The position numbers and the translations under genes are program-made. Below, in pieces: positions 34,959 through 64,000 of a DNA stretch of 64,000 nucleotides. Source of the DNA: a virus; IMG/VR virus record IMGVR_UViG_3300017708_001323, positions 1 through 64,000 of that record, one strand, 5' to 3'. A model generated the notes under the pieces. It did not search any database. It was not told where the DNA came from and saw nothing but the letters and a program-made list of their open reading frames with translations. Position 1 is the first letter of the stretch; each line of letters starts with the position of its first letter.

Positions 34959-35153
34959 TCATACATAGGTCAAGACAATAAATGCCTGTCCTAAAACTAT
35001 TACAGGTTCAGCCGCTATTAAACTAGTAGTGCTTGAAGCACCAGTTAGTGTACCTACTGCTGTATCTATAGTAGTTGCTAGGGTAGTGGTATCAGAAAAT
35101 TGCTTCGGACTAAAAGGTCCAACAATTTTGAACTTAGGGTCTATTGAAGCCAT
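34959..35153 (-). CDS. Small virion protein, paralogue A, 64 aa
   Basis: ATG at 35153 overlaps the stop of the upstream paralogue by one base (TAATG) and follows GGTGGTGA. Homologous to the next gene: both have KIxGPFSPKxFSDTTTLA.TI.TA.G.L near the N-terminus and a hydrophobic beta C-terminus (VIVLGQAFIVLTYV here). The tandem duplicate arrangement is clear from the protein sequences. Function unknown; position among head and neck genes suggests a minor virion or decoration protein. Confidence 0.65.
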   Translation of the reverse strand: MASIDPKFKIVGPFSPKQFSDTTTLATTIDTAVGTLTGASSTTSLIAAEPVIVLGQAFIVLTYV

Positions 35154-35353
35154 TAACTCACCACCCATGATAATTTTATGTAAACATTACCTAACATTGA
35201 AAAAGGTACTGAATCAATGAGAGTATTAGTATCACTACTCTCTCCCAAAGACCCAGCAGCCGTATTTATTGTAGCAGCCAATGTAGTAGTATCACTGAAC
35301 TCTTTTGGGGAAAAGGGTCCAATAATCTTGTACGATGTTGCTATGTTAGCCAC
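35153..35353 (-). CDS. Small virion protein, paralogue B, 66 aa
   Basis: GTG start at 35353 with GGTGA five bases upstream. Paralogue of the 64-aa downstream gene: GPFSPKEFSDTTTLAATINT versus GPFSPKQFSDTTTLATTIDT. C-terminus MLGNVYIKLSWVVS is beta-type. It has no transmembrane segment or metal motif. Function unknown. Confidence 0.65.
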   Translation of the reverse strand: MANIATSYKIIGPFSPKEFSDTTTLAATINTAAGSLGESSDTNTLIDSVPFSMLGNVYIKLSWVVS

Positions 35354-45885: not shown

Positions 45886-47619
45886 TTATGCTCCACGAGG
45901 CCGATTTGCCTCGGAAATACCTCTTTGTGCTCTTTCAACAGGTCTTTGTTGTGGACCTCTTTGCTGAACATTAGAAAAGGGTGAGCCAGCGCCCATTGAG
46001 CCTCTTTGTTCAGGTCTAGCGGGTCCTCTATTTCTCATTCCAACACCTTCCCCACCGGGATTCACAATGCCCGGAGGCATCCCTCTTCCTACTTGTTGCA
46101 TTACACCCGGAGGTACTCCAGCAGGAGGTGCTCCACCCGGAGGAGGTGCTCCACCCGGAGGAGGTGCTCCACCCGGAGGAGGTGCTCCGCCGGGTTGTTG
46201 ACCTGTTTCTAATTTTTTATAGACAAACCTAATATCTCTTTTTCCTTCTTCCAACAATTCAGGTTGATAACCTAACATCATCATTCTTTGAGCAAGATTT
46301 GCTTCCATCTCATCTCTTCTTAATCTTGTGATTTCATCTTCTTCTTCATTAGGATAAAGAGCAAGTTTCCAATCATGTACATTCATTTCTCTTAACATTC
46401 TTGGGAATAAAACTTCAGTATACACTTTTTGCCCAAACTCAACTGCTCGATTAGTTACTAGTATTTGCATACCCTCATTATTCAAACCACCAGACTTACC
46501 ATTATCTATCATAAATACTGATGATACACCAAAGTATGCTGCTATACGATTTCTTATTTCGTCTCTTACAGCCATATACTGCATTTCCTCAAGAGTGTCC
46601 ATGAATTTAACCCAATTCACACCTCCTCTTCCAGTGGAACTCTCAATACCCACCTTAGGAACATAGTGGGGGTCTCTTTCCATTTTTTCGTCAACAGACT
46701 TCCAGAAAGATTTCATAGATTCCAGATTATCTGTAGTTACAGAAATAATTCCTTTTGGTATTCTTCTTTTCTGATAAGCGGTGTAGATGTAATTATCCAT
46801 AGCGGTTAGAGACATTGCTTGTCTCCACATAGTGTTAACTGGAGATTTACCATACAATTTACTAGGATTATATTTTGAAATGTGTATAACTTCTCCCTTA
46901 AGATAGTATTGATTTTTTCCAGAACCAGCCATATTGATATAATGTGCATCTTCCATTTTTGAACCACACACCTGACACGCATCATCTTGACCGGGATAAT
47001 TAATTTGGTCTCTGTGAATAGCACAAACTTTGTATCTACCACCTCTTACTCCTCTCTTATCTGCTACTATTCTCATAAAGATGGGGTCACCTCTTATGAT
47101 TTCTTTTACTCTGTAAAATTGTATTTCTCCAGTATCTGGGTCTACAAAGTACTCTTTAACTAAAATTAAGAAAGCATCATCGACTATATTCAAATCATCT
47201 TCTACTTCTTGTAAAATGTGCATAAAAGATTGTTCCATAGAGTTCTCTTGTTTTAATAACCAACGTGGATATACAGCCTCATCTACATCAGGAGTCCTTA
47301 CTTCACCCCCACAGGCTTTACACATATCCACTGAATGTTGATATTCTTCACCACAGTCTATACATTTAGTTTCAAACTTCTTTTCAAAGTAATACCCTCT
47401 TCGGAATATCTCTTGTTTTAATTTTGCTAAAACCGTCCTAAGAATTAAATTTTCACGAGATACAGCATAAAGAGCAGGAAGTGTAATTCCTTGCGCTAAT
47501 ACTGGTTCTTGAATACCAGTAGTCAACATTGGCATTTGAGGTTGTGGTGTAGTCCTTCTTTTGAAAGGGCTAGAAAGAGCACTGATAAATCTAGAAACTC
47601 TACTCTCATCATCAGCCAT
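45886..47619 (-). CDS. Portal protein with two inserted zinc ribbons, 577 aa
   Basis: The ATG at 47619 (GGAGGG six bases upstream, TAATG overlap with the endonuclease stop) is preferred to the in-frame ATG at 47637. Portal-type segments: LPALYAVSRENLILRTVLAK, RVKEIIRGDPIF, YNPSKLYGKSPVNTMWRQAM, and NRIAAYFGVSSVFMIDNGKSG followed by GLNNEGMQIL, in the order seen in phage portals. Unusual inserts: C86-x2-C89...C100-x2-C103 and C199-x2-H202...C215-x2-C218. The C-terminus holds Pro/Gly repeats (nt 46124-46195) and an Arg/Pro/Gly-rich tail. Role: dodecameric channel for DNA at one head vertex. Confidence 0.8.
   Translation of the reverse strand: MADDESRVSRFISALSSPFKRRTTPQPQMPMLTTGIQEPVLAQGITLPALYAVSRENLILRTVLAKLKQEIFRRGYYFEKKFETKCIDCGEEYQHSVDMCKACGGEVRTPDVDEAVYPRWLLKQENSMEQSFMHILQEVEDDLNIVDDAFLILVKEYFVDPDTGEIQFYRVKEIIRGDPIFMRIVADKRGVRGGRYKVCAIHRDQINYPGQDDACQVCGSKMEDAHYINMAGSGKNQYYLKGEVIHISKYNPSKLYGKSPVNTMWRQAMSLTAMDNYIYTAYQKRRIPKGIISVTTDNLESMKSFWKSVDEKMERDPHYVPKVGIESSTGRGGVNWVKFMDTLEEMQYMAVRDEIRNRIAAYFGVSSVFMIDNGKSGGLNNEGMQILVTNRAVEFGQKVYTEVLFPRMLREMNVHDWKLALYPNEEEDEITRLRRDEMEANLAQRMMMLGYQPELLEEGKRDIRFVYKKLETGQQPGGAPPPGGAPPPGGAPPPGGAPPAGVPPGVMQQVGRGMPPGIVNPGGEGVGMRNRGPARPEQRGSMGAGSPFSNVQQRGPQQRPVERAQRGISEANRPRGA
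46124..46195 (-). repeat. 18-bp tandem repeats (PPGGAP) in the portal C-terminus
   Basis: The plus-strand unit ggaggtgctccacccgga occurs three times perfectly, with a fourth copy diverging at its end. It encodes collagen-like PPGGAP hexapeptides forming a flexible tail. Likely variable between strains. Confidence 0.9.
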
Positions 47620-48842
47620 TATATTCCCTCCGACCATTTACTAATATCGTCTACGGAGCATTCCCATTGAGATAGTAAGTTTTCTGCTTTTTGAGTGTCG
47701 TCTTTCCAATTATTGTATCTAACCACACGCAACAACTCGGTCTTACGAAGAGGGTCTTCCTCTTGGAGATATTGCAAGACAGCCTTTGCTTGGGTATCTT
47801 TCATTTGTAAATGTGGTAAAATCATTTTTAGTAGTTTTTCTACATCACCTTTTGAATAAAATTGTAATCTATGTTGACTTCTAGTGGAGTTTTTGTGTAC
47901 TTTTTGGTCTAATTGTAAAACCCCACATTCTAAAGTTTTGTGTAATTGTTCACAGTGTGCTCTACCTCTATCACCAGTAGCGACAAAACCTGCTCTTGCT
48001 TCACCCCTACCTGTAATTGTAATGTAGCCGTCAGCGTCTAAAAAGCCCGCTGCGTATGCAAAAGGGTCTTTTAGAATTAAACCATTTTTATCCATCTTTA
48101 CAAAAGTTCCTCTAGAAGCACCAGCAGTAATGTCTAGTTCTTCCCCATACATAGAAATTAATTTTGATAACTTGTTACTGGTCATACTTTTGTGTACAAC
48201 ATTGTTTTCACTTAGATGTTCAAATATGGCTCTACTACTCATAGGCCCTCTCTCTGTTAAAACCAAACTGGCTTTTTCTATAGTTTCCCTATCTTTTGAG
48301 TTTAATTTATCTATTTGATGTAAACTTGTTTTCCACATTTTTCTTGCATCTTTCTTATTTTGCATAGCATTAGCCCATGTTTGATTTTCATGTTGCCCCC
48401 ATACATCTTCAAAACTATCGAGAGTCTTGAGAGAAGTATCTGCTTGTTCCCATAATTGACAAGCATTAATTAAACCAGTTTTTCTTGAATCTGAAAATCT
48501 TCTAAGTGATTTTAAATCTCTATCTGAAAGTCCTAATCCTCTAAGTGTATCATATCTTTCATTAGCCCAAGGTATTTGTGATAATGTGCTTTCAACTTCT
48601 AATTTTTTTAATGCTCTGACATCTTGAATTATGTCATCTATTTCATGCTTAACATTTTTATTTTTCCTTCGCATTTTTCTAAGTCTAGATACGAACTCAT
48701 TCGCTGTAACACCTAGATGGCTTTCAAACCAACCTTCGCCAGTATTAGAAAAAAATTTTTTCACTTGAGTGACTTCAACAACTTCTTCATTGCTTTCCGC
48801 TTTAACAAAAAAAGAGTCTTCCAAAAAAGCGCTCGCCCACAT
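47619..48842 (-). CDS. LAGLIDADG-type homing endonuclease, 407 aa
   Basis: ATG at 48842. Residues ~264-272 carry one LAGLIDADG motif (AGFLDADGY), followed by a typical beta-alpha domain (ARAGFVATGD, HCEQLHKTLECG, LQFYSKGDVEKLLKMI). Residues ~190-250 resemble a winged helix (MSSRAIFEHL..NKLSKLISMYG). The N-terminal 180 residues are helical and unfamiliar. Only one LAGLIDADG motif is seen, so it would act as a dimer. It lies between terminase and portal, and its stop overlaps the portal start by one base. It may be a free-standing homing endonuclease or a domesticated packaging factor. Confidence 0.7.
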   Translation of the reverse strand: MWASAFLEDSFFVKAESNEEVVEVTQVKKFFSNTGEGWFESHLGVTANEFVSRLRKMRRKNKNVKHEIDDIIQDVRALKKLEVESTLSQIPWANERYDTLRGLGLSDRDLKSLRRFSDSRKTGLINACQLWEQADTSLKTLDSFEDVWGQHENQTWANAMQNKKDARKMWKTSLHQIDKLNSKDRETIEKASLVLTERGPMSSRAIFEHLSENNVVHKSMTSNKLSKLISMYGEELDITAGASRGTFVKMDKNGLILKDPFAYAAGFLDADGYITITGRGEARAGFVATGDRGRAHCEQLHKTLECGVLQLDQKVHKNSTRSQHRLQFYSKGDVEKLLKMILPHLQMKDTQAKAVLQYLQEEDPLRKTELLRVVRYNNWKDDTQKAENLLSQWECSVDDISKWSEGI

Positions 48843-48972: not shown

Positions 48973-50472
48973 CTATGGTATCATCCAACCACTATTGCGA
49001 TGTTTTCTACCTGCGTGCCAATCATCAAAGCCGGGTAAAATATCATCAAGAAGCACAACACTACCTTTGAACTCTTTAGTTGCAAAATTAGCAAGAGCCA
49101 AACCCATTGCTAAGTCGTCATGTACACCCACAGATTCTAGTCTACCATTTTTCTGCATACCAAATCTGTTTAATTCTTGTTCAAGAGTATGAGTAAACTT
49201 TCGAGATTCTTCATTCCCATAAGGCGTTCTTATTTGACCTTGCTCAAATGCCAATAATAACGACATGAATATTGTCTCCTTCTTTTGTTTCGTTGTCATG
49301 AAAGTCTTAACTGGAATATCAGATGCCATTTCTTTTAGTTCAGTAGCCAACATACGCTGGAAATTATTACCTTCTAATTCTATCAACTCTGGCATAAACT
49401 TGTTATTTATAGCAATAATTTGTCTTTTTTGAGCCATGCTAGACATACCTTTTTGATGTACTACATGCACAATTTCTTTGATACCGTCATTTTCTGGTTT
49501 TATTCTAAGACCTAACATCGCTGTAAAGTCAGCGTTTTTATCAGAAGAAATCGCAGGGTCCCAACCAAAGAAATGTTGCCCGTAAATCCCATCAGGTTCA
49601 CCCTCCTCATTGTAAGCGGTATCTGCTCTCGGAATTAAAACAAGTTCAGGGTCTCTGGCTTTTTCTAGTATATCATTAGGAAACATACTAGCAACATCGT
49701 GAATAGGTTCACATAAATATTCACGAGAAAACTGTATTGCTGGCATAGAAAGTCGTCTTTCATCTAACGCTTCAAGATTCCATCTAGCGGGCCATAATGC
49801 TTCACCTTCTTGATTTATTGCTGGATATGTCTCTACGGTAAAGGTGTCTTTCTTTTCTAATTCTGCATACAAATCGTTGTAACTAAATGGTGTACCGACC
49901 ATCATCAAACGAGAACTGTGGTGAAGAACTGGTAACAAAACACCATAAAACCAATCAGCAGTTCTGGCTAATTCACCAGCACTAGTCCCCCAAAGAATAT
50001 CGTCGCAAACAACAACGTCAGGGTGGAAACCACGAGTAGCACCACCAACTGACTTAGCCATAAGACGACTACCATTTGTAAACTCGAAATATGATTTAGC
50101 CCAAGGTTTTCCTTGAGGTTTTAAATCTCTTAAACAATCAGCCATATCTATATTATTTCTAATAAATCTCATATGTTCAAGAGTCTGCTCTAAAGAGTGT
50201 GAGAAAATCATAATGTGGGTATTAGGATTAAATGCTGCTAACCATAATGCATAACTCATAAAGAAAACAGATTTTCCGTGGTCTCTTGACGCTTTTACAC
50301 AATAATATCTACTTCCAGCAAGACCCTTCTCCCATTGTTCGTGATGCCAATTTAAATCAAATTTTAAAATCTCTGTAAAAAAATACTGAAATGATTTTTT
50401 ACTCATTTCTCTATCCATCTGCATGATGAAATCTTGCATGTCTTGACCCTTATCGTCAATCATGAATATCAC
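48973..50472 (-). CDS. terL: Terminase large subunit, 499 aa
   Basis: GTG at 50472 overlaps the previous stop (GTGA); an in-frame ATG at 50463 is the alternative. Walker A-like segment SRDHGKS at residues 62-68, Walker B-type DVVVCDDIL about residue 150, coupling motif VGTPFSYNDLY, and an RNase H-like nuclease with GWDPAIS, ELEGNN and HDDLAMGLALA supplying the expected acidic residues. Role: ATP-driven motor that packs and cuts the genome. Length (about 500) is normal. Confidence 0.93.
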   Translation of the reverse strand: MIFMIDDKGQDMQDFIMQMDREMSKKSFQYFFTEILKFDLNWHHEQWEKGLAGSRYYCVKASRDHGKSVFFMSYALWLAAFNPNTHIMIFSHSLEQTLEHMRFIRNNIDMADCLRDLKPQGKPWAKSYFEFTNGSRLMAKSVGGATRGFHPDVVVCDDILWGTSAGELARTADWFYGVLLPVLHHSSRLMMVGTPFSYNDLYAELEKKDTFTVETYPAINQEGEALWPARWNLEALDERRLSMPAIQFSREYLCEPIHDVASMFPNDILEKARDPELVLIPRADTAYNEEGEPDGIYGQHFFGWDPAISSDKNADFTAMLGLRIKPENDGIKEIVHVVHQKGMSSMAQKRQIIAINNKFMPELIELEGNNFQRMLATELKEMASDIPVKTFMTTKQKKETIFMSLLLAFEQGQIRTPYGNEESRKFTHTLEQELNRFGMQKNGRLESVGVHDDLAMGLALANFATKEFKGSVVLLDDILPGFDDWHAGRKHRNSGWMIP

Positions 50473-54771: not shown

Positions 54772-55169
54772 CAATAATCCCCCATAAGATACTCACTAGA
54801 GCGTTGTAACGCAGAGGCTATGTCTTCATAGAACTGTTGGATGCTAGGTGGGTCGAGAAAACAACTTCCCATTAATTTTAACTCACCTCTTATTCTTGGT
54901 AAAATTTCTCTTAACTTTCTTCTTGTTTCAAAAACAATTTCAGGCTCATCAGATTCACAGAGAGTTTTTAGATAATCAATTATTTCTAAAATAGCGCTAC
55001 CAAAAACTAATTGAAGATTCTCTTTTTCAACATAAAAGTTAAACTTTTGAAACACTAAAGAAATATAATCTAAAAACACAGGTAGTCTTTTTTCATCAAT
55101 GATTATGTTATCATGTAATAGTCTGTAACCGGGATGTGATGAAACAAATAACTCATCAATTATAATCAC
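54771..55169 (-). CDS. Small helical protein, 132 aa
   Basis: GTG at 55169 overlaps the previous stop (GTGA) with GGAGG nine bases upstream, preferred over the TTG at 55220. Sequence is helical and hydrophobic with patches (LPVFLDYISLVFQKFNFYVE, LVFGSAILEIIDYLKTLCES, RRKLREILPRIRGELKLMG). No recognisable motif. Location between the small-terminase candidate and other packaging-region genes suggests a packaging accessory. Confidence 0.5.
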   Translation of the reverse strand: MIIIDELFVSSHPGYRLLHDNIIIDEKRLPVFLDYISLVFQKFNFYVEKENLQLVFGSAILEIIDYLKTLCESDEPEIVFETRRKLREILPRIRGELKLMGSCFLDPPSIQQFYEDIASALQRSSEYLMGDY

Positions 55170-55852
55170 GCTATATCTCCTCCAGCAGATTCGATTAATT
55201 GAGATTTTATTCGTTTCCAAGATTCAGGAGATTCCTTGGCTAATTCTACTTTTAAGATATTTATTGTTTGATTTACAGTTGTTTCTGTAGTATCACTACC
55301 CCAAGTATCATTGAATTTTACTAAGTCTTTTATTGATTCTCTTACTTCTTTATGTAATGATACAGCATCTCTAACAAATCCATCTTCATGAACACTACCC
55401 TCAGAAAGTAATTCTGAAAGTTTATCATTTAGTTTTTCAACATTGTTTCTAAGTATTCCAAGTTCTTGACCAACTGTAATTGCGACCTCAACTGCTGCTG
55501 ATTTCTTAACCAGCGGTTGAAAGTGGTGCTTCATGTGATGATACACAGTATTCTCAGCAATATCTAATTCCTGTGCAATAGCCTCCGATTCTGACCCATC
55601 AGTAAAAAATCTAGCCTCAAAAGCAGACCTGTCATCATGGGAGCAAATAACGCATCTGGGATTAGCACCCATGTGGTACTCTCCCATATGATTTCTAAAA
55701 TGCCTATCAGAAGTATTTGCTCGCCAACCCATCTCTTGGTCCATTTGTTTCGGAGTTATATTACCCGCAAGTAAATCATCTTCGAGTCCATCTCTATCTG
55801 GATGTTGACAAAAGGAACAAGAGCGTTTTGTTATACGCGCCTCTTCGTCCAT
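55166..55852 (-). CDS. Small-terminase candidate with two Zn/HTH repeats, 228 aa
   Basis: ATG at 55852. Two tandem repeats each start C-x2-C-x-H (C12/C15/H17 and C67/C70/H72), continue with a helix-turn-helix-like segment (NITPKQMDQEMGWR; ESEAIAQELDIAENTVYHH), and end in His pairs. After ~115 residues comes a coiled-coil C-terminal half (LGILRNNVEKLNDKLSELL). DNA-binding N-terminus plus oligomerising C-terminus is the plan of a small terminase, and the large terminase is four genes downstream. The zinc-His repeat is unusual for that family. Could also be a transcription factor. Confidence 0.55.
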   Translation of the reverse strand: MDEEARITKRSCSFCQHPDRDGLEDDLLAGNITPKQMDQEMGWRANTSDRHFRNHMGEYHMGANPRCVICSHDDRSAFEARFFTDGSESEAIAQELDIAENTVYHHMKHHFQPLVKKSAAVEVAITVGQELGILRNNVEKLNDKLSELLSEGSVHEDGFVRDAVSLHKEVRESIKDLVKFNDTWGSDTTETTVNQTINILKVELAKESPESWKRIKSQLIESAGGDIA

Positions 55853-55893: not shown

Positions 55894-56139
55894 CTATTGT
55901 GTTATTCTTGCGTAAACCGCACTTAGAAACACAAGCGAAGAGAATAAACCAAAGACGAAAAATGTAGCCTCGTTAGTTGATAAATCCGCACCTCTAAATA
56001 ATAAAACTGCTACCATCATCACAATCAAAGAAATTAACTGAACCATTATCATATCAATTATTACACTACGTTGTGGACTCCACATACCTAATGCCATTTC
56101 ATTCATTTGATTAATTGGGTTTGGTATTCCTGACATCAT
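55894..56139 (-). CDS. Two-span membrane protein, 81 aa
   Basis: ATG at 56139 (TAATG overlap; a second ATG at 56136). Two hydrophobic segments: SVIIDMIMVQLISLIVMMVAVLLF (about residues 24-47, followed by RGADLS) and EATFFVFGLFSSLVFLSAVYA (about residues 55-75). No signal peptide. Last gene of the membrane/GTPase operon. Role unknown; could anchor the complex or act like a small viral membrane protein (holin-like). Confidence 0.65.
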   Translation of the reverse strand: MMSGIPNPINQMNEMALGMWSPQRSVIIDMIMVQLISLIVMMVAVLLFRGADLSTNEATFFVFGLFSSLVFLSAVYARITQ

Positions 56140-56786
56140 TATGCTCTACCTCCGAATAATAAACTACGAGCAGTACTACCAACAGCATTACCAACGTTTT
56201 CCATCATACCGGGATTTTCAAGCGCCGCACCTAACGCTCCCTGCAACATAGATTGTTGTGACATAGCCAAAACTTGTTGTCTTCTCATCTCTGCTTGTTG
56301 GATAATTGCTGTTGATTGATTTTGTAAATTACTTAATTGAGCAACAATATTTTCAGCAGATAATGTTTGTAAGTCAGAAGGAAGAGTTGTAACGTCTAAA
56401 CTAAGAGTACCAGTTTCCTCGTCTAGTTTAAATTTAGCATTTTTTAATACATTTAGAAAAGAGAATGTAGAAATATTAGATAACATTTCAATCATAACAG
56501 GCATTTGAGCACTTACAATAAACTTTTCAACAGGATTTAATGTTTCAAGCATAGCCATCAAAATCTCTGTTTCAGAAGGAGGGGCTACAGGTTGTTGAGC
56601 AAATTGATTAAATTGATTATATTGGTCTTGCATTCCAAGCCCCGCCACAAAACCCTGTGCTACTGGTTGTTGACCAAAACCGAATTGTTGCTGCTGTTGT
56701 TGCCCAAATGGTGCCCCAGTTTGTGATAAATTGAGAGAAGATGTAGATTGTGGAGTTTGATGTGTATTTCCGAATATTCCTACCAT
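56139..56786 (-). CDS. Gln-rich protein, 215 aa
   Basis: ATG at 56786. First ~70 residues are Gln/Phe/Gly-rich (FGQQQQQQFGFGQQPVAQGF), prion-like low complexity. The middle is a helical/beta core (ILMAMLETLNPVEKFIVSAQ), then a coiled coil (VAQLSNLQNQSTAIIQQAEM) and a Gly/Ala-rich C-terminus. It may act as an oligomeric adaptor in the membrane operon. Family unknown. Confidence 0.6.
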   Translation of the reverse strand: MVGIFGNTHQTPQSTSSLNLSQTGAPFGQQQQQQFGFGQQPVAQGFVAGLGMQDQYNQFNQFAQQPVAPPSETEILMAMLETLNPVEKFIVSAQMPVMIEMLSNISTFSFLNVLKNAKFKLDEETGTLSLDVTTLPSDLQTLSAENIVAQLSNLQNQSTAIIQQAEMRRQQVLAMSQQSMLQGALGAALENPGMMENVGNAVGSTARSLLFGGRA

Positions 56787-56788
56787 AA

Positions 56789-57742
56789 CTAATTCACCCC
56801 TTGTGTATTCGGTATGGGGGCCGTGTTATTAGGTTGCTGATTAATAATTTGTTGAAAAGCAGGTGTTGGTTGATTTATTTCTAACAATTCTTTTTGGAAT
56901 ATCCGTAAATCAAATGTTACTGTAGTAATATCATTTATTCCTGTTTCTGGGTTTTTATAATGAGTGATATTTATTCCTTCATAGGCTCTAGCGTCTTTTT
57001 CTAGTAATTCAAAAAAAGGCTCATACTTCGATAACATCAAAGGTGTATCTGCATCATTTTTTTGCATCACACTAACAGGTACAGTAACAATGGAAACTCC
57101 TTGTTTTACTTTATCGCGTAAACGATTAGGATTCATTTCATATTCTCTTTCTTCTTCAGTTTCCCATTTACAAAGAAGGTGAAATAAATGTAAATGTTCA
57201 GGACAATAAGTTCCTCTCATTTTTCTACCACTGGTTACTTTATCCATTGCTAAAAACGCTTCAGCCTGTCCAGTTACTGGGTTTTGCCAATACATATCCC
57301 AAAGACTTCTACCAGTTTCATCATCACATATTTTCTCGTAAAGATTATCATATTGAATTAATTCTTTACAATCACAACCATCTACCACACAAACGTGTGA
57401 TTGCTTATTGTACCTGTATTTACTACCAAAAAGTCTTGCTGGAGAAATTAGACTTCTTTTTGCTGGCTTTAATAATTTATACGCTTGACGTATATCTTGT
57501 TTTCTGGCTTTTCTAGAATTACCATGAGTTGATGGATAAAAATTAACTTTAGGGACTTCTAAATTTTTTTGAGAAGCCATTTCTTGCATAGAACGTTGAG
57601 CAGCGGCTTGTTCCATTAAAACTGCTCTATTTAATTGAGGATTACCTTGTGCGGCAAGAGCCATTAATGCTGTTTCGTTAGAATGACCTAAAGAATTAAT
57701 TTGTTGTTGATTATTATAACCGGGGATATAATTAGATACCAT
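56789..57742 (-). CDS. Probable zinc-binding protein, 317 aa
   Basis: ATG at 57742. Cysteines and histidines are clustered: C118, C123 and C125 (HVCVVDGCDCKE), C139, C180-x2-H183 (YCPEHLHLFHLL), H188 and C191, suggesting one or two structural metal sites. N-terminus is Gln/Asn/Ala-rich. C-terminal third is a beta/helical domain (THYKNPETGINDITTVTFDLR). It sits between AbrB and the Gln-rich protein. Role unknown; possibly a scaffold of the membrane/GTPase module. Confidence 0.6.
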   Translation of the reverse strand: MVSNYIPGYNNQQQINSLGHSNETALMALAAQGNPQLNRAVLMEQAAAQRSMQEMASQKNLEVPKVNFYPSTHGNSRKARKQDIRQAYKLLKPAKRSLISPARLFGSKYRYNKQSHVCVVDGCDCKELIQYDNLYEKICDDETGRSLWDMYWQNPVTGQAEAFLAMDKVTSGRKMRGTYCPEHLHLFHLLCKWETEEEREYEMNPNRLRDKVKQGVSIVTVPVSVMQKNDADTPLMLSKYEPFFELLEKDARAYEGINITHYKNPETGINDITTVTFDLRIFQKELLEINQPTPAFQQIINQQPNNTAPIPNTQGVN

Positions 57743-57746
57743 ATTA

Positions 57747-57932
57747 TCACTTCTGTTGAGGAGTCACCTTTACACACAATTCTCCATCTTCATTAACATC
57801 AAACTTCCAACTTAGTTTTTCTCCCGCTGTGAGTTTAAATTGTTCAATTATCCACATCGGAACAGTTGTTCTTAGACTATTAGAGCCTCCTCCGGTTGAC
57901 ACAAGAGTGGTCTCATTATTCACTCTTGCCAT
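57747..57932 (-). CDS. AbrB/SpoVT-type swapped-hairpin regulator, 61 aa
   Basis: ATG at 57932, chosen because residues upstream in the open frame (MCTCQVTSS) overlap the GTPase gene and are not conserved in style. GSNSLRTTVPMWIIEQFKL and GEKLSWKFD match the AbrB swapped-hairpin pattern (SLRxTxP...LxxGxxLxW) common in archaeal regulators. Such proteins bind DNA as dimers. It probably controls this operon or host promoters; AT-rich intergenic DNA at 59651-59809 is a candidate target. Confidence 0.75.
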   Translation of the reverse strand: MARVNNETTLVSTGGGSNSLRTTVPMWIIEQFKLTAGEKLSWKFDVNEDGELCVKVTPQQK

Positions 57933-57994
57933 TAGTTGGCGCACCACTACCCATATCAAAAAGGTTACTGATGAGGTCACTTGACAGGTACACA

Positions 57995-58702
57995 CTACAT
58001 TGTTAATAAATCTAACATTGTAATTTCAACATTCCATCCTATTCTAGTAGCCATAAAACTTCTTTTTGTTCTGATACCTGATTTTTGTAAACGAATTAAA
58101 TCATCTCTAAAGGGGTCAAATACCTTATGTTCTCCTATTCTACCTTGTTGCCAAAGTAAAGCGGCGTTGTCATCAAAAAATCTGTCTGCTTTGTTTGCTA
58201 CTAACATTATCAGTTTAGGTGAATATTTTCTACCTTTTATTCTACTTCTTATGCTTCTATAACGATAATTACGAGAAATTAAAACATCACATAAATATTT
58301 GAATCCCGCAACTTGTTCCATACCTTCAGCCCCACCCTTCAAAGCCCTTTCATCGAACATATAGATTATCGCTTCCGCTTGTCGATATACCATATCTTCT
58401 ATCCAAAGATTCCAATATCTTTCTTGTCCACCTATATCAGCAGAGTTCACAACTCGCTTTTCACCTTTCCAAGATACTCTTTTTTTAGTCGATTTAGGTA
58501 AAATGTATCTTGTTAATATTTTATAATGTTCAGTTCTTTCATCAATAGGGATATCATACATCTCTCCGGGTGTTGTCATATAAGAATCCAAAGTGGTTTT
58601 ACCTACCATTGCTGTTCCATAAATACCAACACTACGTGGACGCCAAGCGTTGTAAATATTTTGACCCCATAGTGCAGCGCCTACTAAAACACTACCAGTC
58701 AT
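57995..58702 (-). CDS. Arf/Ras-like small GTPase with hydrophobic N-terminus, 235 aa
   Basis: ATG at 58702; a GTG at 58717 lies inside a GGTGA sequence and is less likely. Motifs: P-loop GTAMVGKT (29-36), DIGGQ (89-93, the Arf/Rab-type switch II with catalytic-position Gln93), NKAD (170-173). Residues 1-20 (MTGSVLVGAALWGQNIYNAW) are hydrophobic/amphipathic, fitting membrane anchoring. Extra Arg/Lys-rich segment (RNYRYRSIRSRIKGRKYS) before NKAD. Role: GTP-dependent switch, likely at the host or virion membrane. Viral small GTPases of this type are rare to my knowledge. Confidence 0.8.
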   Translation of the reverse strand: MTGSVLVGAALWGQNIYNAWRPRSVGIYGTAMVGKTTLDSYMTTPGEMYDIPIDERTEHYKILTRYILPKSTKKRVSWKGEKRVVNSADIGGQERYWNLWIEDMVYRQAEAIIYMFDERALKGGAEGMEQVAGFKYLCDVLISRNYRYRSIRSRIKGRKYSPKLIMLVANKADRFFDDNAALLWQQGRIGEHKVFDPFRDDLIRLQKSGIRTKRSFMATRIGWNVEITMLDLLTM

Positions 58703-58727
58703 ACTCAAAGTAATCACCTACCTTAAA

Positions 58728-58985
58728 TCAACTAAATTTATTTGTTAACCAAGAGCCAAAATCTGCTATTTGCTGATAACCCCATTCTACTGTTGATTCC
58801 CATAAAGAAAAGTCACTATTCGCTTCAAGAGCACTAATAATAAAAACCGAAGCAACTGCTACCACAACAGTTCTAATCCAACCATATCCCCATTCATATA
58901 CGTTATCAACTGTATTAGCCAAATGCATGGCTCTAAGTGTTTCTTCTACTGAATCATCTTTTGGAGTTTTGAAAATCTTACCCAT
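58728..58985 (-). CDS. Single-span membrane protein, 85 aa
   Basis: ATG at 58985. One hydrophobic segment (WIRTVVVAVASVFIISAL, about residues 36-53) between a charged N-terminus (KTPKDDSVEETLR) and an aromatic amphipathic C-terminus (WESTVEWGYQQIADFGSW). Between the GTPase and the coiled-coil membrane protein. Family unknown; probably part of the same membrane complex. Confidence 0.65.
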   Translation of the reverse strand: MGKIFKTPKDDSVEETLRAMHLANTVDNVYEWGYGWIRTVVVAVASVFIISALEANSDFSLWESTVEWGYQQIADFGSWLTNKFS

Positions 58986-58990
58986 CTAGT

Positions 58991-59650
58991 TCAACTCTTA
59001 TATCTGAGGTCAGGTGTTCCATCCTTTTTTAACCTCATGCCAGATTCGTTTTGAGTTGGCTTTCCATCTTTAGGAGGAGTTGGTAAATCTTTTACCATAG
59101 AATCAGTCATTTGATAAATTTCTCTCATATTAGCGGATTCGACTCCTAAACCTAATGGTTGTTGTACATTAGTATTGTGTGTAGGAATGCCGGGATTAAA
59201 AGTAGAATGATAATCTAATCCTAAATTAGCCATATTATTAACATCTCTATTTTCTGTTAAAAATGAAGGCGGTGACATAATTTTATCAGGATTCTCATGC
59301 ATCCATCTTAATTCTTTTTCTAATTCCATTTCTTGTCTTCTTAATTCCATATCAGACCTTCTTTGGTCAAAGTTAACTTGCATATTCCTGAACCTAGATT
59401 GATGTTGTCTTTGAAATTCCGTCATCCTAGCACGTTCTCTAAGATTTCTTTCAAAGAACATTTTGAATAAATAGTATGCTAAACCTTGTAAAGCAAAAGC
59501 ACCCATTGAGTAATTTAAACCATTCATCCATGTTTCTTCATTCACTAGCCATAATTTTGAATCAAAAATAGCAACTGCAACCCCAATCAATGCAGACTGA
59601 CTTATTATTAATCCCATCAATCTAATTTCGGAATCTGTTGTATCAGACAT
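58991..59650 (-). CDS. Two-span membrane protein with coiled coil, 219 aa
   Basis: ATG at 59650 with AAGGTG upstream (the GTG at 59656 is less likely). Two hydrophobic segments near residues 11-30 (LMGLIISQSALIGVAVAIF) and 48-67 (YSMGAFALQGLAYYLFKMFF), then a long Arg/Glu/Met coiled coil (residues ~70-130). C-terminal motif RLKKDGTPDLRYK is a known short signature in proteins of marine phages. First gene of the operon. Topology suggests a cytoplasmic or virion-interior coiled coil able to gather the GTPase module. Confidence 0.65.
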   Translation of the reverse strand: MSDTTDSEIRLMGLIISQSALIGVAVAIFDSKLWLVNEETWMNGLNYSMGAFALQGLAYYLFKMFFERNLRERARMTEFQRQHQSRFRNMQVNFDQRRSDMELRRQEMELEKELRWMHENPDKIMSPPSFLTENRDVNNMANLGLDYHSTFNPGIPTHNTNVQQPLGLGVESANMREIYQMTDSMVKDLPTPPKDGKPTQNESGMRLKKDGTPDLRYKS

Positions 59651-59809
59651 ATACACACCTTGTGAAAGGCCACGGATGGGGTCACCTTAAACCCTTCTGA
59701 GTAAAAATCCGAGGTTTTTACCCATTTGTCTTATTTATCTTATTATTAGTATGTATATAATAATTAATATATATGTATAGAGTCTATATTAATAATAAGA
59801 CAAATGAGA
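59651..59809 (-). promoter_or_regulatory. AT-rich intergenic region, promoter/terminator candidate
   Basis: One of the two longest gaps in the window. Reading the minus strand it holds A/T stretches such as ATATATTAATTATTATATA (TATA-like), about 100 nt before the start of the membrane operon, and a hairpin GTAAAAA/TTTTTAC (59701-59707 with 59715-59721). No ORF. Probably the main promoter for the membrane/GTPase operon and a terminator for the small basic-protein operon, with possible AbrB sites. Confidence 0.55.
59723..59806. repeat. Perfect 13-bp inverted repeat with ~58-nt AT-rich loop
   Basis: CATTTGTCTTATT (59723-59735) pairs perfectly with AATAAGACAAATG (59794-59806). The AT-rich loop contains further near-palindromes. 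It could be an operator, terminator or recombination site. Confidence 0.75.
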
Positions 59810-60163
59810 TTAACAGTTCCAGCGTTTTAGTGCAGCACCTTTTGGTGTTAATTTCCCATCCTTACTAGTCGGCCCTTTACTTCCGCCCATTCTAGCACAA
59901 AATGACTTTCGCCTTTTTGCTGCTTTACTACCGGGTTTTAGTGAACTTGGTTTTTTAGTAACAGGTCTTTTCAAGTTAGCACCTGTTTCTCTTTTTGCTT
60001 TGGCTCGACCTTTTGCATTTAATCCACCACTTCTACTATGTCTGTTTGGATTATAACCATGAAATGGTTTTGATTTTTTTGCTTTCTCAAAAACAGAATC
60101 TAACAATGCTGCTGATGCTTGTTGCATAGGTGAACAACAATCACATATGTCAAAATTATTCAT
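59810..60163 (-). CDS. Small basic protein of marine-virus type, 117 aa
   Basis: ATG at 60163; 8-nt overlap with the previous gene. The C-terminal 70 residues (LNAKGRAKAKRETGANLKRP, then RRKSFCARMGGSKGP, ending KGAALKRWNC) match a conserved family of small proteins in phages and algal viruses (a DUF6321-like sequence, by memory). The N-terminal 25 residues contain a CDCC motif. Function unknown; very basic, possibly nucleic-acid binding and packaged in the virion. Confidence 0.7.
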   Translation of the reverse strand: MNNFDICDCCSPMQQASAALLDSVFEKAKKSKPFHGYNPNRHSRSGGLNAKGRAKAKRETGANLKRPVTKKPSSLKPGSKAAKRRKSFCARMGGSKGPTSKDGKLTPKGAALKRWNC

Positions 60164-60890
60164 TTCTCACTCCTATCTCATTCAAGAAAGATTGTCCCTT
60201 TGCCCTCATTATTGCTCTTTCTGCGATTTCTTCAGGAGTACCAGTTACATCAATAGAAGGTTTAGCACTAAGATATTCTTCAACAGGTACATATGGACGA
60301 GTATAAGAAAAATCAAGAGCGTATATGTCATTTTCAGGGTAATCTCTACCTTCAAATTGGTCCATTACGTTAGGTTCTCCTTCGAAAGGTGAATCAGGGT
60401 GGTCGTGATTTCTTTCAGCCTGAGTTTCATCTAACAATTTCTCCCTACCTCTACGGGCGACACCGCCAGTCTGTTTGTAATTACGATGTCTCCTAGGGTC
60501 GGTTTCCCATTCCATTGTTTCAGGCTTTATCGGTAAGGTCGCTTTCAACACATCCCACGCTGCGGAGAAAGCACTCATGTCGCTTCGCATAGTGTAGTCT
60601 GTCTTAACAATTGTTGGTTTCCCACCCACACCTTGCTTTTTTGCACGTTTTCTTTTTGTCGCTGCTTGTTTCTCACCTGATGACATAGAACCTGATGTTT
60701 TAGGTGTTTTACTTGAAACTTTGATTGAAGGTCTGCATTTAGGATAACCTTTACCTGAAAGTTTTCCCTTGCTTCTACCACATGGTGGGTGCTTACCATC
60801 TTTAGTACGTGACACATCTACCCATTTTTCCTTAAACCAACGGTTTAAGTTTTTTACAATGAGCACATCGTGACAAGTACATCGTGTCAT
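60156..60890 (-). CDS. Basic protein with marine-virus N-terminal domain, 244 aa
   Basis: ATG at 60890, ATGA overlap with the cysteine-rich mini-gene. Residues ~15-80 (EKWVDVSRTKDGKHPPCGRS, KGYPKCRPSIKV, EKQAATKRKRAKKQG) match a family seen in cyanophages and large algal viruses (DUF5872-like by memory). Residues ~100-125 contain SAFSAAWDVLKA, similar to AFEISWNLLRKA in the 97-aa gene. The C-terminal half is acidic. Function unknown; possibly DNA-associated. Confidence 0.65.
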   Translation of the reverse strand: MTRCTCHDVLIVKNLNRWFKEKWVDVSRTKDGKHPPCGRSKGKLSGKGYPKCRPSIKVSSKTPKTSGSMSSGEKQAATKRKRAKKQGVGGKPTIVKTDYTMRSDMSAFSAAWDVLKATLPIKPETMEWETDPRRHRNYKQTGGVARRGREKLLDETQAERNHDHPDSPFEGEPNVMDQFEGRDYPENDIYALDFSYTRPYVPVEEYLSAKPSIDVTGTPEEIAERAIMRAKGQSFLNEIGVRNE

Positions 60891-61048
60891 AGAATTCCTA
60901 CCATTTTCTTAATGTTCTTTTGTTTGTCTATCAGTGCATAGCAAGGACATTTAGGAGAAGATACTGAACATTGATTACCTTCAATCATACAAACACAAGG
61001 TGTTTTTTTAGTACCACCGCAACAACATTTATCTTTCTTAAGTTTCAT
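60887..61048 (-). CDS. Cysteine-rich mini-protein, 53 aa
   Basis: ATG at 61048, stop TGA at 60887, with ATGA overlaps on both sides. Eight cysteines in ~30 residues (KCCCGGTKKTPCVC, QCSVSSPKCPC), followed by a Lys-rich C-terminus. Suggests one or two zinc sites. Both overlaps argue that it is a real, translationally coupled gene. Function unknown. Confidence 0.65.
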   Translation of the reverse strand: MKLKKDKCCCGGTKKTPCVCMIEGNQCSVSSPKCPCYALIDKQKNIKKMVGIL

Positions 61049-61218
61049 TTCTTTTTCTTCCCCTTAAATTTACCACGACAATATTGCACAGCCCAACCAT
61101 TAGCATAAGCAGATGGGTAGACTTTGAACTTTCTTTTTGCTGCTGCTTTTCCAGCAGGACATAATTTTTTCCAAACAGTGTCCATACCCACACAATGACC
61201 ACAATCACAACTATTCAT
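61045..61218 (-). CDS. Small basic protein (PSAYAN family), 57 aa
   Basis: ATG at 61218, stop at 61045, ATGA overlaps on both sides. N-terminus CDCGHCVG, then WKKLCPAGKAAAKRKFKVYP and SAYANGWAVQYCRGKFKG. This K..KVYPSAYANG signature is widespread in cyanophages and algal viruses. Six Cys/His-type residues suggest metal binding. Function unknown; small basic, likely nucleic-acid associated. Confidence 0.7.
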   Translation of the reverse strand: MNSCDCGHCVGMDTVWKKLCPAGKAAAKRKFKVYPSAYANGWAVQYCRGKFKGKKKK

Positions 61219-63023: not shown

Positions 63024-63322
63024 TGGGCTATGTTCTAGTCAAGGCTGCACCTGTTGTTGCTGCTGCTGCTGGTGGTGCTGCTGGTGGTGCTGGTGCTGCT
63101 GCTGGTGGTGCTGCTGGTGGTGGTGCTCTTGCTTCAAAGATAGGAGTTAAAGGTGCTGTAAAAGGAGCATTAGGTTTGAAAACATTCCAATCTTTAAATG
63201 ATGCTAAAAATCAAGCAAAAGATATTTCTGGACAAAATCAGGGTCAATATAAACAATTAGCGGCTGAAACTCGTCAGATGTTAAGAGATAAGGCTTCTAC
63301 GAATTCCGCTCAGTTTTCCTGA
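63023..63322 (+). CDS. Ala/Gly-rich protein, 99 aa (only plus-strand gene)
   Basis: ATG at 63023, stop TGA at 63320-63322. Residues ~9-35 are almost pure Ala/Gly (AAAAGGAAGGAGAAAGGAAGG) encoded by GCT/GGT triplets, followed by basic KIGVKGAVKGALGLK and a Gln/Asn/Lys helix (DAKNQAKDISGQNQGQYKQL). The end overlaps the HMG-CoA lyase end by 42 nt. Looks like a membrane-active or virion-associated peptide, but could also be a chance frame over a repeat. If real it may mark a divergent or lysogeny-related transcript. Confidence 0.45.
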   Translation: MGYVLVKAAPVVAAAAGGAAGGAGAAAGGAAGGGALASKIGVKGAVKGALGLKTFQSLNDAKNQAKDISGQNQGQYKQLAAETRQMLRDKASTNSAQFS

Positions 63323-64000
63323 AACATAAATATAGGCTCTTTCAGCCATCGGAATATTAACAATTCCTTTTAGGTACATTTCAGCGGCCTCTAATTTTGC
63401 AATATCTACAGATTGTTCAATTTCAATTCCGTAATCCGAAGCCCAGTCAATTAAATACCGAGTTGGTAAATTACCAAAACTACCCGGAACAAAAGGACAA
63501 CCACCTAAACCGCCCAAAGAAGTATCGAACTCCCTAATACCGGATAAGTAGGCAGCATCCAGTAAATGTGAAAATTCAACCTTCCTACTACTAGGCTTGT
63601 GTAGGTGAATGGCTAAATTTGGCATAATTTCTCGGGCAATTTTTACCACGGTGGTAATTTCTTTTGGAGTCGCTATTCCTGTAGTGTCTGCTAAAACTAT
63701 TGTAGAAGAGTTTTCAGCCCCCCATTTTAAGATTTGAATAAAAAGAGACTCATCATAATCATCGAAAGCGGAACCAAAAGCGCAAGAAATGTATAACCTC
63801 ACCTGTTCAGGAAGAGTCTCTTCTAGAGCAACTTCATATCTTTCTAGTATTCTATCAATACTTGGTGTACCTAAATTGCGGGTATTGAACTCTGGAGAAG
63901 GTGAAAGATAGATATTGAAGAGATTCACACCCGCTTCTTTTGCTAATTCTAAACCTTTTGCGTTTGGGACTAATGCTGAAATTTGATTATCTTCTTGATT
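63281..64000 (-). CDS. HMG-CoA lyase, C-terminal part (N-terminus outside window)
   Basis: The frame runs from the window edge to a TAA at 63281, 239 codons. VPNAKGLELAKEAGV, LYISCAFGSAF, LADTTGIATP, IHLHKPSSRK and LGGLGGCPFVPGSFGN match the HMG-CoA lyase/pyruvate carboxyltransferase TIM barrel; the GGLGGCPF segment carries the active-site Cys, and HLH the metal ligands. Reaction: cleavage of 3-hydroxy-3-methylglutaryl-CoA to acetyl-CoA and acetoacetate (leucine catabolism). A full protein is about 300 aa, so about 60 residues lie outside. The C-terminus (YVSGKLSGIRRSLIS) is unremarkable but may be altered by a junction. Likely host gene next to a provirus, or an auxiliary metabolic gene. Confidence 0.85.
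   Translation of the reverse strand, partial: NQEDNQISALVPNAKGLELAKEAGVNLFNIYLSPSPEFNTRNLGTPSIDRILERYEVALEETLPEQVRLYISCAFGSAFDDYDESLFIQILKWGAENSSTIVLADTTGIATPKEITTVVKIAREIMPNLAIHLHKPSSRKVEFSHLLDAAYLSGIREFDTSLGGLGGCPFVPGSFGNLPTRYLIDWASDYGIEIEQSVDIAKLEAAEMYLKGIVNIPMAERAYIYVSGKLSGIRRSLIS

Follow-up and report, generated by a model that had tools for sequence, protein, structure and literature searches.

Small GTPases act as molecular switches, and those of the Arf kind shape membranes in our own cells. The closest archaeal counterpart described so far is ArvABC, the vesiculating GTPase operon of Haloferax volcanii (HVO_3014-3012), in which the small GTPase ArvA drives vesicle formation together with its operon partners, a membrane-shaping role shown by knockout (PMC10927574). 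ArvA has an N-terminal hydrophobic helix, and one of its partners is a Cys-rich or Zn-type protein. Other prokaryotic small GTPases are encoded with regulators in the MglA-Roadblock polarity modules and the actinobacterial conservons, which are cellular systems, and small GTPases control polarity and vesicles in prokaryotes (PMC10927574). Among viruses, giant eukaryotic viruses encode Ras-superfamily GTPases with a suggested membrane role, for example the mimivirus Rab (PMC4569851), although these are of eukaryotic Rab, Ras, Ran or Galpha types, belong to a different virus realm, and are not known to sit in a comparable membrane-protein operon. Finally, the holins of tailed phages and the virus-associated pyramids (PVAP) rely on small membrane proteins that work late in infection, without a GTPase, and PVAP is reported only outside tailed viruses (PMC12596118).

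We analyzed a 64,000-nucleotide stretch of viral DNA (the window; IMG/VR record IMGVR_UViG_3300017708_001323, positions 1 to 64,000), for which a sequence-only reading had proposed an undescribed operon of seven tightly packed genes combining membrane proteins with an Arf/Ras-like GTPase. That observation held: all seven open reading frames (ORFs) are present on the minus strand at 55894-59656, with 0 to 15 bp between most of them. The genes, with their context, are as follows.

58991..59656, minus strand: g7, a membrane protein with one clear span (residues 13-31), a borderline second span, and then a charged coiled-coil-like stretch; likely start at 59650, as the sequence-only reading gave it
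58728..58985, minus strand: g6, an 85-aa single-span membrane protein
57995..58717, minus strand: g5, a Ras-superfamily, Arf-like GTPase with a predicted N-terminal hydrophobic helix; probable start a few codons downstream of 58717
57747..57995, minus strand: g4, an AbrB/MazE-type small protein, accessory; probable start about 57929 (about 60 aa, as in relatives)
56789..57742, minus strand: g3, a soluble Cys/His protein of unknown fold
56139..56786, minus strand: g2, a protein with a Gln-rich N terminus
55894..56139, minus strand: g1, an 81-aa two-span membrane protein
55166..55852, minus strand: a Cys/His-HTH, TerS-like protein, the downstream neighbor in fixed order (context)
48973..50472, minus strand: the terminase large subunit (context, used as an independent anchor)
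59723..59809, no strand assigned: an AT-rich inverted repeat just upstream of g7, a possible regulatory or terminator element (unproven)

The gene content of the virus and its relatives is that of the Magrovirales, tailed viruses of about 90 to 110 kb that infect Poseidoniales (marine group II) archaea. PolB and chaperonin genes were each found in 16 of 16 relatives, and an HMG-CoA-lyase-like gene, named by eye, lies in the window at 63281-64000; this assignment rests on gene content rather than on direct comparison with the named magrovirus genomes (ON649702, OR863078, and PP497040).

To determine whether the block is a stable unit, we examined its gene order in related viruses, a comparison that had been set in advance as a test of the proposal. 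All 80 relatives found through the GTPase keep the seven genes in one order and on one strand within about 4 kb. Independent anchors agreed: the GTPase was found 7.7 to 9.9 kb upstream of the terminase in 43 of 43 terminase-anchored loci, it was linked to g3 in 72 of 72 g3-anchored loci, and the block was present in all 10 DNA polymerase-anchored records that also carry the terminase. In three divergent lineages, whose GTPases are 48 to 58% identical, the other six genes are kept but AbrB is absent between g5 and g3. We therefore rejected AbrB as an essential member and regard the core as six genes, universal in every magrovirus lineage tested. In eight of the close loci BLAST missed AbrB, but these do have an AbrB-like ORF. 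Selection on the block is strongly purifying, with dN/dS of about 0.03 to 0.17 in pairs where dS could be estimated, and this conservation excludes chance as the source of the arrangement. The inverted repeat upstream of g7, with 13-nt perfect and 24-nt 88% arms, also occurs in loci L002 and L003 and, with other sequence, in L012, but was not found in L005.

We next asked whether g5 is a small GTPase. Its motifs read G34-TAMV-G39-K40-T41 (G1), D94-I-G-G-Q (G3), N175-K-A-D178 (G4), and M222-A-T (G5). The G1, G4, and G5 residues and the DxGG of G3 are invariant in 71 distinct sequences and in three far more divergent ones, whereas the switch-II Gln98 is present in 57 of the 71 and replaced in 14, with E98 among the natural forms, so hydrolysis may differ from canonical. 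A Foldseek search with the AlphaFold2 model (pLDDT 69) placed the predicted fold in the Ras superfamily (probability 1.00, E 2.3e-7), all top hits being small GTPases. TM scores were low (0.39 to 0.49) because the N-terminal half is poorly modeled; the model is good in the second half of the protein but poor at the P-loop and switch I.

The resemblance to the Arf family lies in motif detail rather than in overall sequence. The viral protein shares with Arf proteins DxGGQ with a W at the LW position, NKxD, an "AT" G5 motif, and, by prediction only, an N-terminal helix; W102, W105, and MAT are invariant, and of its Arf-like DxGGQxRFWNLW stretch the best Asgard hits share DxGGQxxFWxLW. However, family-level similarity fell below threshold: the Arf Pfam profile matched at E 0.076 at best, and ARL proteins were the main but weak PDB sequence hits, at E 0.5 or worse. 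In addition, the viral GTPase has a long conserved switch I (TTPGEM...RTxH) unlike Arf, and its partners are unrelated. The N-terminal helix (residues 6-25, predicted with low confidence) is hydrophobic but only weakly amphipathic, with a moment of at most 0.36.

Given the parallels with ArvABC, we tested whether the block belongs to that system and rejected this reading. No match to ArvB (PF09846, DUF2073/OapB) was found in 11 virus records, although ArvB was recovered from an Asgard metagenome-assembled genome (MAG) and from the Haloferax and Methanosarcina controls, and no block protein matched the DUF2072 Zn ribbon of ArvC. The GTPase next to ArvB in the Asgard MAG, a single cellular example, reads DMPG at G3, where the viral protein has DxGGQ. 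ArvABC also has no set of three membrane proteins. No Pfam Roadblock/LC7 domain match was found in g1 to g7, and no INPHARED phage record encodes a GTPase relative. In BFVD the structural matches to the GTPase are essentially those of giant eukaryotic viruses. A genome scan for cellular or provirus copies, limited to close relatives, found only two short contigs, in an "Asgard" MAG and a Maricaulis MAG; their other genes are block and neighboring virus genes, and they are most likely misbinned virus contigs.

The remaining proteins gave fewer clues. AbrB similarity is weak in the window protein (MazE_antitoxin, PF04014, E 0.0028) but stronger in relatives (E 5e-5 to 1e-4). In g3, C118, C180, H183, H185, and H188 are invariant, whereas C123 and C125 vary; its AlphaFold2 model was too poor to use (pLDDT 62, pTM 0.49). 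No family match was found for g2, and its description as prion-like in the sequence-only reading rests only on the Gln richness of its N terminus. Of the membrane proteins, g1 has two clear segments (Kyte-Doolittle 2.8 and 1.9) and g6 has one, whereas the second segment proposed for g7 is borderline (median Kyte-Doolittle 1.37). These three are the only clear transmembrane proteins in the window's late region, and the block supplies most of the strong ones in two complete-size relatives, although a few other hydrophobic ORFs exist elsewhere in the relatives.

One alternative is that there is no joint machine. In this view the genes are neighbors only through packing in a late operon, the GTPase does something unrelated (for example, assisting translation or assembly), and g1, or g1 with g7, is an ordinary holin-like lysis protein. 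Indeed, g1 resembles class II holins in size and topology, g1 and g6 are small proteins with one to three spans placed, by position only, among late genes, and tight packing alone can preserve the order of late viral genes. On the other hand, g1, g6, and g7 had no family match in the Pfam and PHROG searches, and the flanks take up and shuffle cargo genes (u1, u2, and u3b lie before the block or after terminase), while no insertion occurs between g7 and g1 in 80 loci and the six genes stay together at about 50% GTPase identity. Packaging-gene order is equally stable, so this is not decisive, but we consider this explanation unlikely.

The block also continues, in conserved order and on the same strand, into the TerS-like gene (HTH hits; weak match to terminase small subunit PHROG 2538, E 0.14), two or three further genes, and the terminase (PHROG 38, E 1.9e-66), so that it lies in or at the head of the late morphogenesis region. 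Structural and packaging genes are arranged in this way, and this position fits virion assembly as well as release. The block proteins could be packaged or scaffold components, with the GTPase timing capsid or portal assembly at the membrane, or they could be injected with the DNA to help the genome through the host membrane. However, no tailed-virus assembly or ejection system is known to use a Ras-type GTPase, and no PHROG head, tail, or ejection family credibly matched g1 to g7. We regard this alternative, too, as improbable.

A third alternative is that the module works at the cell surface to block superinfection, or to redirect host membrane, motility, or vesicle functions, rather than to release virions. 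Membrane proteins plus a GTPase switch are the parts expected for a membrane-surface function. Yet superinfection and host-control genes are usually patchy accessory genes, whereas this block is universal and under strong purifying selection, and a PADLOC search returned no defense-system match. The same evidence led us to reject a defense or counter-defense system, and a host-directed role seems doubtful.

Taken together, these results lead us to favor, tentatively, a model in which the block is a core late-gene module of magroviruses built around an Arf-like small GTPase that cycles between GTP and GDP. Its N-terminal hydrophobic helix and the membrane proteins g7, g6, and g1 would bring it to the host cytoplasmic membrane, where nucleotide state would control assembly of a g7/g6/g1 membrane structure, while g3 and g2 would be soluble effectors or regulators (GAP/GEF-like). 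The most likely use would be late membrane remodeling for virion release: opening or budding of the host envelope, or extrusion of virions or vesicles, with ArvA as the analogue; the presumed task is the same as that of holins and virus-associated pyramids. Our analysis establishes the genes and their conservation, their linkage to packaging genes, the intact nucleotide-binding motifs, the predicted Ras-superfamily fold, and the place of g1, g6, and g7 as the clear transmembrane proteins of the window's late region. GTP binding, hydrolysis, and cycling, membrane targeting of the GTPase, contacts between the proteins, late timing, any permeabilization of the membrane, and the release step itself are inferred without direct evidence.

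The interpretation offered by the sequence-only reading, a viral module working at the host membrane in entry, egress, remodeling, or superinfection control, is thus supported only in part. An Arf/Ras-like GTPase in a membrane-protein block, a tailed virus, and conserved gene order in marine archaeal viruses were borne out, AbrB had to be removed from the core, and action at the membrane, as well as the step served, remains inference. The claim that no such module has been described also agrees with the magrovirus papers we could read, none of which mentions it, although three key ones were not among them and prior gene-level annotation of the GTPase cannot be excluded.

A bolder possibility, which we consider unlikely but which is compatible with the evidence, is that tailed viruses of archaea evolved a dedicated GTPase-driven membrane machine of their own, with six core proteins, five of them without known relatives, for leaving the cell or shaping vesicles. 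This would be a mode of virus release unlike holins or virus-associated pyramids, and the first Ras-superfamily switch that is a core gene of a tailed virus order.

Magroviruses are widespread in the surface ocean and prey on abundant archaea, yet archaea lack peptidoglycan, the release route of most archaeal viruses is unknown, and how tailed viruses leave archaea without a peptidoglycan-like wall is an open question (PMC4456609). A universal six-gene membrane-GTPase block next to the packaging genes is a concrete candidate. It also places an Arf-like GTPase with membrane-protein neighbors in archaeal viruses, which bears on where membrane-shaping GTPases came from and whether viruses moved them between lineages.

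To determine whether the gene block proposed in the sequence-only reading exists, we examined the open reading frames (ORFs) of the region and found that the observation held. The block consists of seven ORFs on the minus strand, most of them separated by 0 to 15 bp. In transcription order, these are g7 (membrane segment(s) plus a coiled-coil-like stretch), g6 (one span), g5 (GTPase), g4 (AbrB-type), g3 (Cys/His), g2 (Gln-rich N terminus), and g1 (two spans). Downstream on the same strand lie a TerS-like Cys/His-HTH protein, further conserved genes, and the terminase. The block and the other features of the window that we refer to below are as follows.

55894-59656, minus strand: the seven-gene block, g7 to g1
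48973-50472, minus strand: terminase (PHROG 38, E 1.9e-66)
47619-48842: ORF between terminase and portal, with a stretch (AGFLDADGYITI) that reads, by eye only, like a LAGLIDADG-type homing endonuclease
59029: C terminus of g7
59723-59809: AT-rich inverted repeat between the upstream cargo gene and g7
59810-61218: u1, u2, and u3b, small Cys/Lys-rich proteins (e.g., WVDVSRTKDGKHPPCGRSK...GYPKC)
63281-64000: lyase-like gene at the right end of the window
34962-35168: short ORF with a hydrophobic segment
10799-26962: a single 5,387-amino-acid ORF (16 kb, about a quarter of the window), presumably a giant tail or adhesin protein

The record is a 67,779-bp IMG/VR virus sequence, and its relatives of 82 to 107 kb carry a family B DNA polymerase (PolB; 16/16) and a chaperonin (16/16). 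In addition, the lyase-like gene was read as HMG-CoA-lyase type by eye. These are reported features of magroviruses, tailed viruses of Poseidoniales archaea (PMC5332604, PMC10768690), and our assignment rests on them. The window's own record lacks both PolB and the chaperonin and is probably a fragment; a 99% relative (locus L002) has both.

Starting from the GTPase, we found the genes to be collinear on one strand in all 80 comparable loci, with a distance of 3.0 to 3.4 kb from the end of g7 to the TerS-like gene. Eight loci in which BLAST missed AbrB do have an AbrB-like ORF at that position. To avoid finding only what we had looked for, we repeated the comparison from three other anchors. 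With terminase as the anchor, all 43 loci with about 10 kb of upstream sequence have the GTPase, and with g3 as the anchor, 72 of 72 loci have the GTPase directly upstream. The third anchor, DNA polymerase, is not near the block; of 23 records of 41 to 107 kb, the GTPase occurs in all 10 that also have a recognizable terminase, plus one more. The 12 records without the GTPase have no recognizable terminase either, and so they may be partial records or viruses with other late genes. Because many loci share environments and some are near-identical, these counts are not all independent events, and the 71 distinct GTPase sequences and the deep lineages are the stronger evidence. The PolB set reached three such deep lineages, whose GTPases are 48 to 58% identical to that of the window. 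These lineages keep g7-g6-g5-g3-g2-g1 and the TerS-like gene in order, but g5 abuts g3 with no AbrB gene between them. The core is therefore six genes, not the seven of the sequence-only reading, and AbrB was either gained in the main group or lost outside it. Purifying selection acts on all genes (dN/dS of about 0.03 to 0.17 where dS is measurable).

The u1, u2, and u3b proteins are 75 to 93% identical across viruses yet change position, lying before the block or after terminase, and are mobile cargo. The inverted repeat just upstream of g7, which could be a promoter, operator, or terminator, is kept in loci L002 and L003 and occurs as a different 42-nucleotide palindrome in locus L012, but it was not found in locus L005. 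Many g7 proteins end in LKKDGTPDxRYKK, a motif that occurs once in the window and once in the sequence G009 and is missing in several members.

We next compared the GTPase with known families. The G1, G4, and G5 residues and the DxGG of G3 are invariant in the 71 sequences, whereas the switch II Gln is Gln in 57 and Glu, Asp, or His in 14. Sequence libraries detected only weak Ras-type similarity (Roc, E 4.8e-4; small_GTP, E 1.8e-4), both below their cut-offs, and the GTPases surfacing in PDB sequence searches were mainly Arf-like (ARL6, ARL8), all with weak E values. In 148 Asgard genomes, the best cellular hits share DxGGQxxFWxLW, an Arf-type motif. Claims about Asgard GTPases could be misled by two short contigs, L082 (JABLTJ010000060.1, "Asgard group archaeon" metagenome-assembled genome [MAG]) and L083 (NZMJ01000140.1, "Maricaulis" MAG), both of which consist of magrovirus block and neighboring genes and look like virus contigs misbinned into these MAGs. 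The AlphaFold2 model (pLDDT 69, pTM 0.71) is good after about residue 100 and poor at the P-loop and switch I. Foldseek nevertheless returned Ras-superfamily GTPases with a probability of 1.00, and in the viral library the GTPase matches were essentially those of giant eukaryotic viruses. No INPHARED phage has a credible relative. The protein is thus a Ras-superfamily GTPase with Arf-like motifs, without formal membership in the Arf family being established.

By hydropathy, the clear transmembrane genes on the coding strand of the 64-kb window are g1, g6, and g7, although the second segment of g7 is borderline. The other segments above threshold score lower and lie mostly in large Ala/Gly-rich proteins, plus the short ORF at 34962-35168 and a plus-strand ORF opposite the capsid region. 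In two complete-size relatives, the block again supplies most of the strong ones, though a few other hydrophobic ORFs occur.

The interpretation offered in the sequence-only reading, a viral module that works at the host membrane, was partly supported. The genes, their conserved linkage, the nucleotide-binding motifs, and the membrane proteins are shown by our analysis, whereas GTP binding and cycling, membrane recruitment, and the mechanism as a whole are inferred. In this view, the GTPase, tethered or recruited to the cytoplasmic membrane, would use its nucleotide state to control a membrane assembly of g7, g6, and g1, with g3 and g2 as soluble regulators or effectors. Position among late genes, universality, and membrane content favor a role in the release of virions, and archaea lack peptidoglycan, with the release of most archaeal viruses unexplained (PMC4456609). 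We hold this reading only tentatively, because virion assembly or delivery, a host-directed surface function, and no joint machine at all are rival explanations that the present data do not separate cleanly. A working parallel is ArvA of Haloferax, a small GTPase with an amphipathic N-terminal helix whose loss abolishes RNA-associated vesicles, with a Zn-ribbon partner proposed as its GAP (PMC10927574). The viral module may work like that, but it is not a member of this system: the ArvB family is absent from 11 virus records, no DUF2072 match appears, and the GTPase beside ArvB in the Asgard MAG has a DMPG G3.

The magrovirus papers we read (PMC10160649, PMC5332604, PMC7318539, PMC5628999, and the Aoguangviridae, Apasviridae, and Satyavativiridae profiles) do not mention a GTPase, although gene-level annotation is possible in Philosof 2017, Prabhu 2025, and Zhou 2023. 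Small-GTPase membrane switches are already known, and we consider the magrovirus block to be a putative new version of such a switch, with a real chance that it is a new kind of virus machinery.
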